The notes under the pieces are model-generated. The model had not been told where the DNA came from, ran no database searches, and saw nothing but the letters and a program-made list of their open reading frames with translations. 41,901 bases of DNA from Acidimicrobiales bacterium (GTDB lineage Bacteria; Actinomycetota; Acidimicrobiia; Acidimicrobiales; AC-9). Positions 6,640 to 41,901 of the stretch are shown piece by piece. Positions within the stretch are counted from its first letter, which is position 1. Each line of letters begins with the position of its first letter. Both the position numbers and the translations under genes were made by a program. The stretch is from NCBI GenBank assembly GCA_036491125.1, contig DASXCO010000130.1, forward strand, positions 1 through 41,901. Direction: 5' to 3'.

Positions 6640-7005
6640 GCCAGAAAACAGGGCTTCCACGTCCTCCAGCCCCCTGGCCAAGTCTGGATCCGGCTCCAGG
6701 CTGAGGACATAGCGGGCCAACGCCACCCGGCGTTCAGCCACGGACCAGTGGACGTCGTCTTGATTCGCCCAGTCGGGGAGGGGCACGTGGTGAAGGCCCG
6801 CTTCGAGCTCGGCGAGGCGGTCGAGCAACCTGGGAATTCGCCACGGCCGGGCGGTCATGGCAGCCCTCATCGTGTCGCCGGGTACCCGTTCCATGACCTG
6901 GAGCGGCCCGTCGACCACCTCGCCGGGTGGGAAGACGGCGCGGCGATCGCCTTCTTCCAGCATCCCGGCACAACCGCGGAGCCTCCGCTGAAGCCCTATG
7001 CGAAC
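6640..7005 (-). pseudogene. Remnant of an aminoglycoside-phosphotransferase-family kinase
   Basis: The minus-strand translation contains PLQVMERVPGDTM followed by RPWRIPRLLDRLAELEAGLHHVPLPDW. This is the hinge and inter-lobe helix typical of actinobacterial APH-fold kinases (LVMERVxG...LAxLHxxLHxIPxPDW). The ATP-binding N-lobe is largely absent upstream, and the catalytic HxDxxxxN and metal-binding IDW segments are missing. After PDW the frame continues into about 45 residues that could be the distal C-lobe joined by a deletion. The frame then runs on into antisense of the MFS gene, which is not plausible coding sequence. I read it as a decayed gene. The 6,599-7,084 interval holds nothing else. 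Confidence 0.6.
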
Positions 7006-7084
7006 GCGGCCTGGCACGGCTGCTGACCCGGGCGGATTCGAGCTGGCCGGGTGCAGCGGGGCGGCCAGGATTAAGATCACGAGA

Positions 7085-8722
7085 ATGGCCAGCACGGCAT
7101 CAAAGGCTCCGGTACGCGATCTTGAGGCCGTCATCGTGGGCGCCGGCTTCTCCGGGATCTACATGCTTCACCAGCTGCGGGATGTGCTCGGGCTCTCTGC
7201 CCGGGTCTTCGAGCAGGGTGATGGGGTGGGCGGGACCTGGTACTGGAATCGTTACCCGGGCGCGCGGTGCGATTCCGAGAGCTACTACTACTCGTACTCG
7301 TTCTCCGAGGAGCTCCAGCAGGAGTGGGTCTGGAGCAGCAAGTATCCCGAACAGCCCGAGATCCTGCGCTACCTCGAGCACGTCGCCGACCGGTTCGACC
7401 TACGCCGTGACATCCAGCTCGGCACCCGGGTGACGAGAGCGGTGTTCAGGGAGGAGAGCGACGACTGGGAGGTCCACACCGACCGGGGTGACGTCGTGAC
7501 TGCTCACTTCTTCATCAGCGCTGTCGGGTGTCTGTCGGCGGCCAACGTTCCTCAACTACCCGGTCTCGAGCGGTTCGGCGGCGAGTGGTACCACACGGGC
7601 GCGTGGCCACAGGAACCCGTCGACTTCTCCGGCAAGCGGGTTGGCCTCGTCGGCACCGGCTCGACCGGGATCCAGGCCGTGCCGGTCGTCGCCGCCGAGG
7701 CGGGCCATCTCACCGTGTTCCAGCGCACACCCAACTACAGCGTGCCGGCCCGCAACCTGGCGTTGACGCCTGAGCAGATGAGTGAGATCAAGGCCAACTA
7801 TCGGGCGATCCGCCGCAAGGCAAGGAACTCATTCGCCGGCTTTCCCTACGACCCGAGCGACAAGGGGGCCATGGAGGTCCCTCCGGAGGAGCGGCAGGAG
7901 ACCTATGAGCGCCTCTGGGCCGAAGAAGGCGGGTTCAAGTTCATCTACGGCTCGTATATGGACCTGCTCTTCAACAAGGCTTCGAACGACACGGCGTCGG
8001 AGTTCATCCGGAGCAAGATCCGGCAGATCGTGAAGGACCCCGTCGTGGCCGAGAGGCTCGTGCCCACCGATTACCCGTACGGCACCAAGCGCCCGCCGAT
8101 CGACACCGACTACTTCCACGCCTTCAACCAGGACAACGTGACGCTCGTAGACCTGAGGAAGACACCGATCACCGAGATCACCAGGGACGGCCTTCGTACT
8201 ACGGACGCTTCGCACGACCTCGACATCCTGATCTTCGCTACTGGCTTCGACGCCATGACGGGGTCCCTGCTCAAGATCGACGTTGAGGGTCGGGGTGGGC
8301 AGCAGTTGCAGGAGAAATGGGAGTCCGGGCCTCGGAGCTACCTAGGCATGCAAGTGGCGGGCTTTCCGAACATGTTCGTCATCACCGGTCCCGGCAGCCC
8401 CTCGGTGCTGACCAACATGCCGCTGGCCATCGAGCAGCACGTCGAGTGGATAGGGGAGTGCATCTCTTATCTTCGTGAGCACGGCCTCACTCGTGTCGAG
8501 GCCACCGAGGAGGCCGAGGCGGCCTGGGTGGAGCAGGTTCGCCAGGTCGCGGAGGCGACTCTCTTCCCACTCGCGAACTCGTGGTACATAGGCGCCAACA
8601 TCCCGGGAAAGAGCAGGGTGTTCATGCCCTACGTGGGCGGCTTCGCGCCCTACCGTCGCCACTGCGAGGACGTGGCTGCCAACGGCTACGAGGGGTTCGC
8701 GCTTTCGGCTGGCGCCAGCTGA
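7085..8722 (+). CDS. Flavin-containing Baeyer-Villiger-type monooxygenase
   Basis: A 545-aa class B flavoprotein monooxygenase. The FAD-binding loop GAGFSG lies at residues 19-24, followed by the GGTWYWNRYPGARCD segment. The Baeyer-Villiger fingerprint FxGxxxHxxxWP appears as FGGEWYHTGAWP near residue 163. The NADPH-binding loop GLVGTGSTG follows near 186. Length and order match cyclohexanone/phenylacetone-type enzymes, which insert one oxygen next to a ketone using NADPH and O2. The ATG at 7085 is chosen because it begins just before the FAD strand; an upstream in-frame start at 6998 would add 29 unrelated residues. It is monocistronic here and ends one base from the stop of the convergent repeat protein. 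The ketone substrate is not predictable. Confidence 0.9.
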   Translation: MASTASKAPVRDLEAVIVGAGFSGIYMLHQLRDVLGLSARVFEQGDGVGGTWYWNRYPGARCDSESYYYSYSFSEELQQEWVWSSKYPEQPEILRYLEHVADRFDLRRDIQLGTRVTRAVFREESDDWEVHTDRGDVVTAHFFISAVGCLSAANVPQLPGLERFGGEWYHTGAWPQEPVDFSGKRVGLVGTGSTGIQAVPVVAAEAGHLTVFQRTPNYSVPARNLALTPEQMSEIKANYRAIRRKARNSFAGFPYDPSDKGAMEVPPEERQETYERLWAEEGGFKFIYGSYMDLLFNKASNDTASEFIRSKIRQIVKDPVVAERLVPTDYPYGTKRPPIDTDYFHAFNQDNVTLVDLRKTPITEITRDGLRTTDASHDLDILIFATGFDAMTGSLLKIDVEGRGGQQLQEKWESGPRSYLGMQVAGFPNMFVITGPGSPSVLTNMPLAIEQHVEWIGECISYLREHGLTRVEATEEAEAAWVEQVRQVAEATLFPLANSWYIGANIPGKSRVFMPYVGGFAPYRRHCEDVAANGYEGFALSAGAS

Positions 8723-38669: not shown

Positions 38670-39878
38670 TCAGGGTAACGACGTGGCTGTCGGCAATGGA
38701 AAGCCCACCGTCTGTGCCCAGGCCCGGTTGATGAGGTAGTTGCCGGACGAGTCGATGTCGAGGATGACGACGGGGCTGTTGGCGCGGTTCCCGGTCTTGG
38801 GCTCGATCGTGATGGTGCCGGTGATGCCCTGGAAGTTCGTAGCCTGGTCGAGGCGGGACTGGGTGGCCGCCTCCTTCCAACCCCCAGCCTCCGTCACGGC
38901 TTGGGCCAGCAACTTGACCGAGTCGTAGGTGAAGGTCCCCCAGGTCCCCGGAGCGGTGTGAAATGCGTTCGTGTAGTCGGTCACGTATTGGCCGGCGCCG
39001 GCGAACTGCTGGGCCGGCGGAACACCGCTGTTGAGACAGTGTTGCGCCACCGGCACTGTCGCTGCTCCCACGAAGTCAGGACCCTGGGCGGCGAGATCGA
39101 CCAAGCAGCCGCCTCCGACATTGCTCTGCGATGCCTGGCGAGCGACCTGGCCCGCCTCGGCACCGTAGGCGGCGATGTAGACGAGGTCGGGATGGCTGGC
39201 CGCCACCGCCGAGATGACCCCCGAGAAGTCGCTCTGGCCCTCGGTTATCGACTGGAAGGCCACCGGAGGATGACCGGCGGCGGCGAGCAGGTCCCGCAGC
39301 CGCCCGGCGATTCCCGCCGTGTAGGTCGACGTGTCGTAGACCATGGCCACCCTGGTGGCGTGGAGCACCTGGGTGATCTCGGCCGCCTCGACCGGCGCTA
39401 CCTGTACGTCCATCGGTTGGGTGGTGACGCCGAAGCCCTGGGTGGTGCCGGCGCTCGTGAGCCGGACGATCGAGACGTCCGCCGAGCGGTAGATGGGGAG
39501 GTTCTTGACACCCACCGAAGAGTTGAACGGACCCACTACGCCGAAGACGTGCTGTGCGACCATGCGGTTGGCGGTAGTGACTCCCGTTGCGGCGGACGCG
39601 GCGTCATCGGCCCGCACTAAGCGGAGCTTCACCCCACCGACACCTCCGGACGCGTTCAGCTGATCAGCGGCGAGCTGGGCTCCCTGGAACATGTCGATGC
39701 CGGTCGACGACTGGGAGCCGGTCATCGGACCTTCCACCGCGATGAGGCCCGGACTGGGCGAGCCTGTCGCCGAGTTCGAGGATGAACAGCCGGATGCGAT
39801 GACCGCAGTGGTGACTAGGGCGACGGCGATTGATGCGACCCGGATCCGGCTGAGGTTGTGATTCAAGCTGACCGCCAT
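38670..39878 (-). CDS. Branched-chain-amino-acid-type ABC transporter substrate-binding lipoprotein
   Basis: About 402 aa from ATG 39878. An in-frame start at 39,989 would add 37 residues and overlap the inhibitor gene, so the shorter form is preferred because the signal peptide then starts promptly. A basic/hydrophobic leader ends in a lipobox (IASGC, Cys31) followed by a Ser-rich linker. The mature part is a type I periplasmic-binding fold (LivJ/Leu-Ile-Val family): IAVEGPMTGSQSSTGIDMFQ, GAQLAADQLNASGGVGGVKL, then VVGPFNSSVGVKNLPIYRSA and a YDTSTYTAGIAGRLRDLLAA interdomain segment. It should capture an amino acid, amide or aromatic acid outside the membrane. No permease or ATPase genes are adjacent, so it is an orphan component or serves a distant transporter. 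Confidence 0.92.
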   Translation of the reverse strand: MAVSLNHNLSRIRVASIAVALVTTAVIASGCSSSNSATGSPSPGLIAVEGPMTGSQSSTGIDMFQGAQLAADQLNASGGVGGVKLRLVRADDAASAATGVTTANRMVAQHVFGVVGPFNSSVGVKNLPIYRSADVSIVRLTSAGTTQGFGVTTQPMDVQVAPVEAAEITQVLHATRVAMVYDTSTYTAGIAGRLRDLLAAAGHPPVAFQSITEGQSDFSGVISAVAASHPDLVYIAAYGAEAGQVARQASQSNVGGGCLVDLAAQGPDFVGAATVPVAQHCLNSGVPPAQQFAGAGQYVTDYTNAFHTAPGTWGTFTYDSVKLLAQAVTEAGGWKEAATQSRLDQATNFQGITGTITIEPKTGNRANSPVVILDIDSSGNYLINRAWAQTVGFPLPTATSLP

Positions 39879-39939: not shown

Positions 39940-40263
39940 ATGAGCCGAGAGCCAGCCTTGAAGCTGACAAGTGACGACACTCGCGGCACTCGTTCAGTTC
40001 ACGTCGGGGATCAGATCCAAGTCAGGCTGGAGGAGAATCCCACGACCGGGTACCGCTGGGAGCCCGACATCGATCCACTGGTCCTGCGAGAAGTTGACGA
40101 TCGCTATACGGGAGGTGTCGATCGACGAGGAGAACCTGGAGTCCGGGTGAAGACCTTCGAAGCCATGACACCCGCTTGGACGCAGCTTCGCCTCGTGGAA
40201 CGACGGAGCTGGGAGACCACTCCGAGTGACGAGTTCGTCGTGCAACTCGACATTGCGCCCTGA
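39940..40263 (+). CDS. Chagasin-family (I42) cysteine-protease inhibitor
   Basis: A 107-aa protein. The chagasin signature is present: VHVGDQIQVRLEENPTTGYRW contains the NPTTGY loop; a Gly-containing loop RRGEPGVRVKTFEAMTP follows; the third loop is RRSWE in place of the usual RPW/F. In known I42 proteins these three loops enter the active-site cleft of papain-like (C1) proteases. There is no signal peptide, so the protein is predicted cytoplasmic, whereas many bacterial homologues are exported. It is convergent with the unknown gene at 40,319 and lies 1 kb from the C1A protease gene. Inhibition of that protease is an inference from family pairing and proximity. Confidence 0.85.
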   Translation: MSREPALKLTSDDTRGTRSVHVGDQIQVRLEENPTTGYRWEPDIDPLVLREVDDRYTGGVDRRGEPGVRVKTFEAMTPAWTQLRLVERRSWETTPSDEFVVQLDIAP

Positions 40264-40318
40264 GGTTCGGCCGTGCAGCCACGTACGGCGCCGATCGTGC
40301 ACTCAGCAAGCGAGGCGG

Positions 40319-41197
40319 TCAGCCAGCCGACTTGGTGCTTTTCCGGATCTTGGCAGGACCCTTGCGGCCCTTCTTCTTGACCGATCCTGCGTCGTCCCGA
40401 CCCGCCTTGCTGTTCTGAAGACCGAACGCTTGCTGAGCGAGGGGATGGGTAGCAGGGGCGATCAGCGTCTGGCGCTTTCCTTGGGCACGGTCGAGCTGCT
40501 TGGCCAGGGGCGTCCCAGGCGTCGCATAGACGACCCTCGCCTCGCCGTTCCCACTGCCGCGACGACCAGCGGGCACGACGGCCGCCGGTTGGCCCGACTC
40601 GGGGTCGGTGACCCAGAGGATGAAGTCGTCGTGTTTGACGAGCTCGATGTCCGTGATAGGGGTCGGATAGTGATGGACGCCCCCGGATCCAGTCTGGCTG
40701 GACGATAGGACTCCCACGTGCCGGAGCTGGGGGAGTGGGACGCAGGAGTTGAAGATCGAGTCCACCCAGGCCGCGACACCGTTGGCGTCTTTGATCGGAT
40801 TGTCCAGGAGCTGCTGAGCGTTCTGATAGCCCAGCTCGGCCATCTTGGCTGCGGACTGGGGAAAGGCGACATACAGCCGACGGGCGTTCTGGCGGAGCTG
40901 GTCTACCTTGTCGGGGTCTGCGCAGAACTGTGCGCTCCACTCGATGCCCGCTACGTTCTTCACGAGAAACCAGCCGCTGTCGTCGTACAGGTAGAGCGAG
41001 CCTCCGTGATGCTCCTGGATCTTGCCTTGGCCCAACAACTGCGGGACGCCCGCACTTAGCGCGATCTTGTGGGCCAAGGTCTTGGAGGCCACGAAGGCAG
41101 GACTGTCGGAGCGCGGCGGGTGATCCGGGATGTTGATGGTCCAGGGGTAGTCTTCCTGCTCCTGGTGCAGACTTGGCGTCTCGGTTCCGCCACTCAT
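40319..41197 (-). CDS. Uncharacterised protein with Lys-rich C-terminal tail, in a C1A protease operon
   Basis: A 292-aa protein from ATG 41197 with AGGAGAG seven bases upstream. It starts with an acidic segment, then YPWTINIPDHPPRSDSPAFV, GSLYLYDDSGWFLVKNVAGI, EWSAQFCADPDKVDQLRQNA and SIFNSCVPLPQLRHVGVL, ending in a HHYPTPITDI / DDFILWVTDPESG block. I believe it matches an actinobacterial family of unknown function (possibly DUF6424; unverified). The last ~30 residues are basic (SVKKKGRKGPAKIRKSTKS), as in nucleic-acid- or wall-polymer-binding tails. No signal peptide, membrane helix or catalytic motif is evident. It lies 110 bp downstream of the C1A gene on the same strand, likely one operon. 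Role unknown: protease partner, substrate or regulator are all possible. Confidence 0.85.
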   Translation of the reverse strand: MSGGTETPSLHQEQEDYPWTINIPDHPPRSDSPAFVASKTLAHKIALSAGVPQLLGQGKIQEHHGGSLYLYDDSGWFLVKNVAGIEWSAQFCADPDKVDQLRQNARRLYVAFPQSAAKMAELGYQNAQQLLDNPIKDANGVAAWVDSIFNSCVPLPQLRHVGVLSSSQTGSGGVHHYPTPITDIELVKHDDFILWVTDPESGQPAAVVPAGRRGSGNGEARVVYATPGTPLAKQLDRAQGKRQTLIAPATHPLAQQAFGLQNSKAGRDDAGSVKKKGRKGPAKIRKSTKSAG

Positions 41198-41307
41198 GTG
41201 GGGCTCTCCTCATGAAGTTGGGACCGGCTCCCGCCACCTGGCTGGCCTTCAGCACCGCAGTCGACTGGCCCTGCAGCAGAACTCAGCTCCGTTCGGCAGA
41301 CGCAGCC

Positions 41308-41901
41308 TTAGGTGACCAGCCGGACCGTCCAGAAGTCGCTGGAGAGTCCCCGCTGGGCGAGATAGGCATAGGGAAGGGTGAAGTATCCGCCCATGCCCCA
41401 AGTGGCGGCCCACGAGTTCCGGACCACGAACCACTGGGAAGCGTCGTCATAACCCACGGCCATGACGGCGTGGCCCCCCAGGACCTTCTCGCCGCTGGCT
41501 GGCATGGGCGCGTGCCCGGTGCTCGCGACCTGCTCGCTCTCGAAGCTCTCGTAGACCGTGAATCCGAAGACGAACGGATAGCCGGAGGCCAAACATCCCT
41601 TGAGCTGACTCGGATTGGAGACCACGCGCTGATAGGTGACGGCCTTGTTCTTGGCACCATCGTCGTAGCAGTTGGTCGGCGGCCGGTCGGCGAACTTCGT
41701 AATGTCGTAGGGCCATAGGGGCTCGTGGCAGGCCCCGTCTGAGGCGACCGTCTTGATGCCATCGCGGATCTGGGCCCCGCTGTCGGACGCCACCGTGCCC
41801 TCGAGGGACCGCTCGTTGTAGTAGATGTACAGCCGCGAAGGCACGAAGACATCTGAGAGCTTCTGCTTCATCTGGTCGAACTCGAGAGCCGCTCCAATGG
41901 C
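41308..41901 (-). CDS. Papain-like C1A cysteine peptidase, N-terminus outside window
   Basis: The C-terminal 197 residues of a C1 family peptidase; the frame is open to the window edge, so the gene starts beyond it. The visible part begins AIGAALEFDQMKQKLSDVFV, the helix that normally follows the catalytic Cys, which is therefore just outside. Then come PSRLYIYYNER and SGAQIRDGIKTVASDGACHE. The catalytic His is in LGGHAVMAVGYDD and the Asn in WFVVRNSWAATWGMGGYFTL, where NSWG is NSWA. The C-terminus SSDFWTVRLV is typical of the bacterial subgroup. It should hydrolyse proteins using a Cys-His-Asn triad; localisation cannot be judged without the N-terminus. An I42-type inhibitor gene lies about 1 kb away, with one unknown gene between. 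Confidence 0.93.
   Translation of the reverse strand, partial: AIGAALEFDQMKQKLSDVFVPSRLYIYYNERSLEGTVASDSGAQIRDGIKTVASDGACHEPLWPYDITKFADRPPTNCYDDGAKNKAVTYQRVVSNPSQLKGCLASGYPFVFGFTVYESFESEQVASTGHAPMPASGEKVLGGHAVMAVGYDDASQWFVVRNSWAATWGMGGYFTLPYAYLAQRGLSSDFWTVRLVT

Follow-up and report, generated by a model that had tools for sequence, protein, structure and literature searches.

A papain-like C1A protease and a chagasin-family I42 inhibitor at the end of an actinobacterial contig: a putative intracellular protease–guard pair

The window, a stretch of 41,901 nt, is one entire contig (G000:C130) of an assembly of 3.83 Mb consisting of 251 contigs. Three open reading frames at its end, located as the earlier note had placed them, encode a papain-like protease, a protein of the DUF6424 family, and an I42 inhibitor (Table 1). 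Because the window is the whole contig, the protease gene is cut by the contig edge. The DUF6424 gene lies downstream of it on the same strand, after a gap of 110 bp and with an AGGAG Shine–Dalgarno-like site, and is probably cotranscribed with it. The I42 gene is convergent with the DUF6424 gene, with 55 bp between the stop codons, so that the protease and inhibitor genes are about 1 kb apart and all three genes are located within 2 kb. Family searches of the genome found one copy each of C1A, DUF6424, and I42. The GC3 value of the I42 gene was 0.64, versus 0.79–0.85 for its neighbors. A gene encoding a branched-chain amino-acid type ABC substrate-binding protein (38670–39878) is divergent from the I42 gene and shares its upstream region. 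A promoter and terminator scan gave no result, and searches of the window proteins with PHROGs, NCBIfam, and PADLOC yielded nothing that altered the interpretation.

Table 1. Features of the window and of the groups of loci compared with it.
Feature	Location	Strand	Basis
Cysteine protease of the papain-like C1A family (xylellain-type), 197-aa 3' fragment running off the contig edge	41308..41901	-	PF00112, PDB 3ois
Catalytic His, fragment residue 144, GGHAV motif	41470..41472	-	invariant in 13 aligned homologues
Catalytic Asn, fragment residue 162, RNSW motif	41416..41418	-	invariant in 13 aligned homologues
292-aa member of DUF6424 with a Lys-rich C-terminal tail	40319..41197	-	PF19988
Chagasin-family I42 inhibitor, 107 aa, leaderless	39940..40263	+	PF09394, AF2/Foldseek
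I42 loop L2, NPTTGY	40036..40053	+	sequence, alignment A7, PMC2607524 loop definition
I42 loop L4, GEPG (chagasin GXGG position)	40129..40140	+	alignment A7, PMC2607524
I42 loop L6, RSW (chagasin RPW/F)	40204..40212	+	alignment A7
Phage-contig C1A genes	L206 3827-4594; L207 3824-4594; L208 3833-4597		IMG/VR
DUF6424-Tle1 loci	L018, L026, L030, L035, L038, L051, L052, L058, L063, L071, L072, L077, L080
M78::I42-C1A loci (Rhizobium, Sphingomonas, Bradyrhizobium, Haloarcula, Sulfitobacter, Burkholderia, Sinorhizobium, Acuticoccus)	L203, L209-L216

The protease fragment matched Pfam Peptidase_C1 with an E of 7e-11 (43 bits, cut-off of 20.7). Among PDB entries, the bacterial cysteine protease 3ois matched best (E 1e-50), and its residue 82 aligns with the first residue of the fragment. 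The description of this protein as a papain-like protease with visible His and Asn sites was thus confirmed, H144 and N162 being invariant in the homologues. In the same alignment, the window protease has RNSWA/NSWA, while the other sequences have NSWG or NSWS. The catalytic Cys and the oxyanion-hole Gln would lie beyond the contig edge; both are present in the full-length orthologues of G001, a member of the same genus (L181; 83% identical, no hydrophobic leader), and of G011 (60% identical, leaderless). L181 carries DQGQLGSCTANAIG opposite the window start AIGAALEF, and from this alignment the catalytic Cys of the window protease is expected about 4 residues past the contig edge. An active Cys and the lack of a signal peptide are predicted for the window protease from these relatives. 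The missing N-terminus, which the earlier note had proposed to obtain, was not recovered: the N-terminal part of a homologue, used as a query, gave no credible match in the genome. No delivery domain was visible on the protease fragment or on its orthologue.

Leaderless C1A proteases 65, 59, and 48% identical to that of the window were encoded by three phage contigs of IMG/VR, none of them with an I42 gene within 4 kb. As judged by eye from the translations, one of these genes adjoins an amidase and small membrane proteins in a lysis-like cassette, and another adjoins ThyX and terminase. The acquisition of xylellain-type C1A by tailed phages has been described in a survey (PMC10380794), and the window protease gene probably moves with phages.

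The identification of the 107-aa protein as an I42 inhibitor was borne out by its match to Pfam Inhibitor_I42 (E 3e-18) and by its AlphaFold2 model, built from 17 sequences with a mean pLDDT of 92, which aligned with chagasin in the complex with cathepsin L (2nqd) with a TM of 0.81 and rmsd of 2.0 (Foldseek). Both the profile match and the model indicate the Ig-like chagasin fold. The loops of chagasin that contact papain-family proteases carry NPTTG, GXGG, and RPW/F (PMC2607524). The earlier claim that the window loops match those that block C1 proteases held exactly for NPTTG; GEPG and RSW are variants of GXGG and RPW/F. Such variants also occur in other bacterial members, which have GAPG or GAGG at L4, and RSW was found in L115, L121, and G011 as well. 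No tblastn match of the window I42 was obtained in the plasmid collection.

The I42 inhibitor of the window is leaderless, as had been noted: no in-frame ATG, GTG, or TTG was found upstream of position 39940, and therefore a signal peptide cannot be gained by way of a longer start. Most other actinobacterial I42 proteins at the sampled loci were secreted proteins or lipoproteins. With leader calls based on a simple hydropathy rule and assumed start codons, 33 I42 proteins from the phylum and relative searches had a hydrophobic leader, and none of them had a C1A gene within about 1.5 kb on each side; the 30 loci from the phylum represent the top scores rather than a random draw. Leaderless I42 proteins at these loci comprised two encoded beside C1A, in G011 and G036, as well as a fusion to a Rieske domain in G030 and a further case that was unclear. 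When the window (the index case) and Streptomyces G402 (found via its C1A) are included, 4/5 or 4/6 of the leaderless I42 genes are situated beside C1A (Fisher p 7e-5, or 2e-4 if the unclear case is counted as unlinked).

The middle protein of the window, regarded earlier as uncharacterized, belongs to Pfam DUF6424 (E 9e-71, residues 12–270, nearly the whole protein). Its reported basic tail is present, Lys making up 28% of the final 25 residues, but it is not a trait of the family, in which the maximum is 12%. Lys/Ala-rich C-terminal tails were observed in two different proteins of related genomes: the C1A protease of G011 (L179, 7132–8049) and the window DUF6424 (40319–40400). DUF6424 was encoded in 4/396 Actinomycetota genomes and in 20/296 Streptomyces; when each species was represented by a single genome, the scan yielded 74 loci. 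It was absent from the phage records and viral contigs searched, and only one plasmid record contained it. An AlphaFold2 model of DUF6424 (61 sequences, pLDDT 81) had no PDB or viral fold match at E <0.1, and a profile search of the PDB found nothing. The invariant residues of the family include E86, C92, D146, H160, and H175, which, as a conjecture from conservation, would be compatible with an active site or a metal site. On a contig binned as Chloroflexi (L016, 2483–4195), one protein of 570 aa carries two tandem DUF6424 domains.

Tle1-like phospholipases accounted for 13 genes among the immediate neighbors of DUF6424, versus 0/107 control genes of the same loci (Fisher p 2e-4). In all 13 loci the Tle1-like gene follows DUF6424 on the same strand, mostly within 50 bp. 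These DUF6424 copies all fall within a single Streptomyces clade, to which the window copy does not belong, and the link therefore represents few evolutionary events. Further immediate neighbors were GH25 (3), M14 (2), and phage-sheath (2) genes; the latter lie just downstream of DUF6424 in contractile injection clusters (L043, L048). A protein with an EndoU-type nuclease domain and an AAGNRA motif was encoded just upstream of DUF6424 in L010 (6915–8063), and the immediate neighbors in L032 included a caspase-domain gene. A role of DUF6424 as a partner of contractile injection systems was rejected, since its co-distribution with the tube gene in 296 Streptomyces was 13/20 versus 185/276 (p 0.8). 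The tube gene (PF06841) had no match in the window genome in a search made without a positive control. With the Tle1 link confined to one clade and no co-distribution with the tube gene, an accessory function of DUF6424 for leaderless hydrolases is a lead only.

Neither C1A nor I42 was detected within up to 10 kb on each side at about 78 DUF6424 loci (the 74 and four more), as searched by BLASTP or phmmer with the window proteins; a strongly diverged I42 could be missed by such a single-sequence search. Nor was DUF6424 found beside the other C1A–I42 loci examined. The three-gene module suggested in the earlier note did not withstand this check of co-localization: there was no second trio at the DUF6424 loci, at about 37 actinobacterial C1A loci, or at the plasmid C1A loci examined.

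The C1A and I42 genes, by contrast with the trio, recur together. Among 59 relatives searched, five genomes encoded C1A; apart from the window genome, those with an I42 gene directly adjacent were G011 and G036. Both are of the same order as the window genome, and G011 is its closest relative in that order from outside the genus. In G011 (L179), a leaderless I42 (6797–7105) is followed on the same strand after 26 bp by a leaderless C1A starting at 7132; in G036, an ImmA/IrrE metallopeptidase (M78) with an I42 domain is followed by C1A after 3 bp. Streptomyces G402 encodes a C1A of 647 aa and, 1 bp downstream, an I42-like protein slightly under the Pfam cut-off. Plasmid records with PGAP annotation contained C1A–I42 in Streptomyces canus and Priestia megaterium and C1A–hypothetical–I42–caspase in Deinococcus aetherius. 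The pairs of G011, G036, the two Streptomyces, Deinococcus, and Priestia are co-directional with both proteins leaderless; the pair of the window is the only one found that is not co-directional, and the DUF6424 gene lies between its members.

Most other C1A loci had no I42 nearby, and I42 was not detected in G001 (91% complete), which encodes the 83%-identical protease. Adjacency was seen at three of the 37 Actinomycetota C1A loci, the window excluded, versus about 0.015 expected from about 0.3 I42 copies per genome and a roughly assumed gene number per genome (rough binomial p 5e-7). Co-occurrence of C1A and I42 at the genome level was marginal (9/27 versus 76/396, one-sided p 0.05). Judging from these loci, the C1A–I42 pair appears conserved, with qualification. 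As its members adjoin in several unrelated genomes, the proposed protease/inhibitor relationship is supported, while DUF6424 is probably a separate partner outside this pair.

A more complex arrangement was found on plasmids. A tblastn search with the M78 protein of Rhizobium ruizarguesonis yielded 16 plasmid records, and nine loci were examined, from alphaproteobacteria, betaproteobacteria (Burkholderia), and one haloarchaeon (Haloarcula). All nine have the same operon order: a small gene and an HTH gene come first, the M78 gene is next, C1A follows directly on it, and a hypothetical gene comes last. The I42 domain following the M78 domain was above the Pfam cut-off in 6/9 and below it in 3/9. 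The G036 locus (L180, 5778–7832) has the M78::I42 fusion and C1A in common with this operon. Uracil-DNA glycosylase and MazG-type pyrophosphohydrolase genes are often found next to the operon; other neighbors encode dCTP deaminase, holo-ACP synthase, and, at a single locus, Shedu. In PADLOC, the M78 domains showed a resemblance to CapP. These features suggest a regulated module, putatively for conflict or maintenance. No pertinent paper on the operon was found in the open literature searched.

We consider it on balance probable that the window encodes a leaderless C1A protease held in the cytoplasm by a putative dedicated I42 guard. With its NPTTGY, GEPG, and RSW loops, I42 would block the active-site cleft of the protease, and the protease would be kept silent in the cytoplasm until separated from I42 by stress-triggered removal of the inhibitor, by cell lysis, or by transfer to another cell. 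The observed basis of this model is the domain identities, the fold, the intact loop positions, the leaderless I42, and the recurrent adjacency of leaderless C1A and I42. We infer, beyond this, the leaderless state of the window protease (from its orthologues), its inhibition by the window I42, the trigger, and the protease target. Against the guard model stand the convergent orientation of I42, the intervening DUF6424 gene, the G001 protease without a detectable I42, the phage-contig homologues without I42, and the marginal genome-level co-occurrence.

Several of these points would also fit an accidental adjacency, which we regard as rather unlikely, with I42 targeting another protease (e.g., from phages or protists) and C1A being an independent, phage-derived acquisition. 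The convergent I42 with its lower GC3 than the neighbors, the phage-contig protease homologues, together with the acquisition of xylellain-type C1A by tailed phages (PMC10380794), and the lack of a detectable I42 in G001, which encodes the protease, are consistent with it; however, the C1A and I42 of the window are the only ones found in the 3.8-Mb genome and lie about 1 kb apart, and G011 has both families as a tight gene pair. It is likewise improbable that the protease is an effector-like hydrolase with DUF6424 as its accessory (an adaptor, a chaperone, or a co-delivered protein) and that I42 is secondary and independently acquired. That DUF6424 shares the strand of C1A, follows it closely, and has a good ribosome site would agree with such a role, as would the Tle1-like, GH25, M14, phage-sheath, EndoU, and caspase-domain neighbors at other DUF6424 loci, but the Tle1 link is limited to a Streptomyces clade without the window copy, the contractile-injection tube gene shows no association in the 296 Streptomyces and was not found in the window genome, and none of the about 78 DUF6424 loci has another C1A. 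A true three-gene toxin cassette, consisting of a secreted or delivered C1A toxin, a DUF6424 partner, and an I42 immunity protein, is very improbable: all genes are within 2 kb and the plan resembles those of Cpe1–Cpi1 and protealysin–emfourin, but the absence of a second trio from the loci listed above and of a delivery domain on the protease fragment or orthologue argues against it.

The guard model has parallels in known systems. Staphostatin guards staphopain in the cytoplasm. The staphopain–staphostatin pair (C47/I57; PMC7863939) is likewise composed of a cysteine protease and a specific endogenous inhibitor; however, staphopains are secreted and belong to C47, and the fold and substrate-like binding of staphostatin differ from those of chagasin. 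Protealysin–emfourin of Serratia proteamaculans (PMC9505478) also has a dedicated inhibitor encoded next to an intracellular protease, but it involves a metalloprotease and an unrelated inhibitor family in one operon, whereas the window has C1A and I42 in convergent orientation. In Cpe1–Cpi1 (PMC12136450), a papain-like cysteine protease is similarly accompanied by an adjacent small neutralizing gene. Cpi1 is described to bind beside the active site and to block substrate access without occluding the site (PMC12136450), in contrast to the chagasin fold, the fold of the window inhibitor, by which the cleft is occluded. Cpe1 is linked to delivery by T6SS/CDI (PMC12136450), while no delivery link was seen in the window.

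The fold and three-loop layout of the window I42 are those of chagasin/ICP (MEROPS I42; T. cruzi chagasin, Pseudomonas aeruginosa ICP). Unlike the sampled actinobacterial I42 proteins, most of which have a leader and no C1 protease alongside, it is leaderless and near such a protease. Xylellain (PDB 3ois) is the closest solved relative of the window protease, which shares its domain type with the phage xylellain-type C1A; those found had no I42 nearby, unlike the window protease. A protease with a dedicated neighboring inhibitor is thus a known kind of system (PMC9505478, PMC12136450, PMC7863939). Searches of the open literature, limited in coverage, turned up no leaderless C1A guarded by I42, and the open-licence literature searched contained no paper on DUF6424 or "protease inhibitor I42".

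As a wider and tentative possibility, leaderless C1A with I42 may constitute an intracellular protease/antidote module that is widespread in bacteria and archaea and has yet to be described. The M78::I42 plasmid operon would be its most elaborate form, in which damage or invasion could be the signal for the M78 half to set the protease free; the window would then hold a rearranged version that stands alone. DUF6424 is better separated from the C1A–I42 pair, and Tle1-like phospholipases are alternative partners to consider for it. To our knowledge, bacterial chagasin-type inhibitors are largely without an obvious endogenous target. A leaderless I42 beside, or fused upstream of, a leaderless C1A in several phyla provides a concrete candidate target for I42, and this pairing suggests a protease-based control or conflict module.
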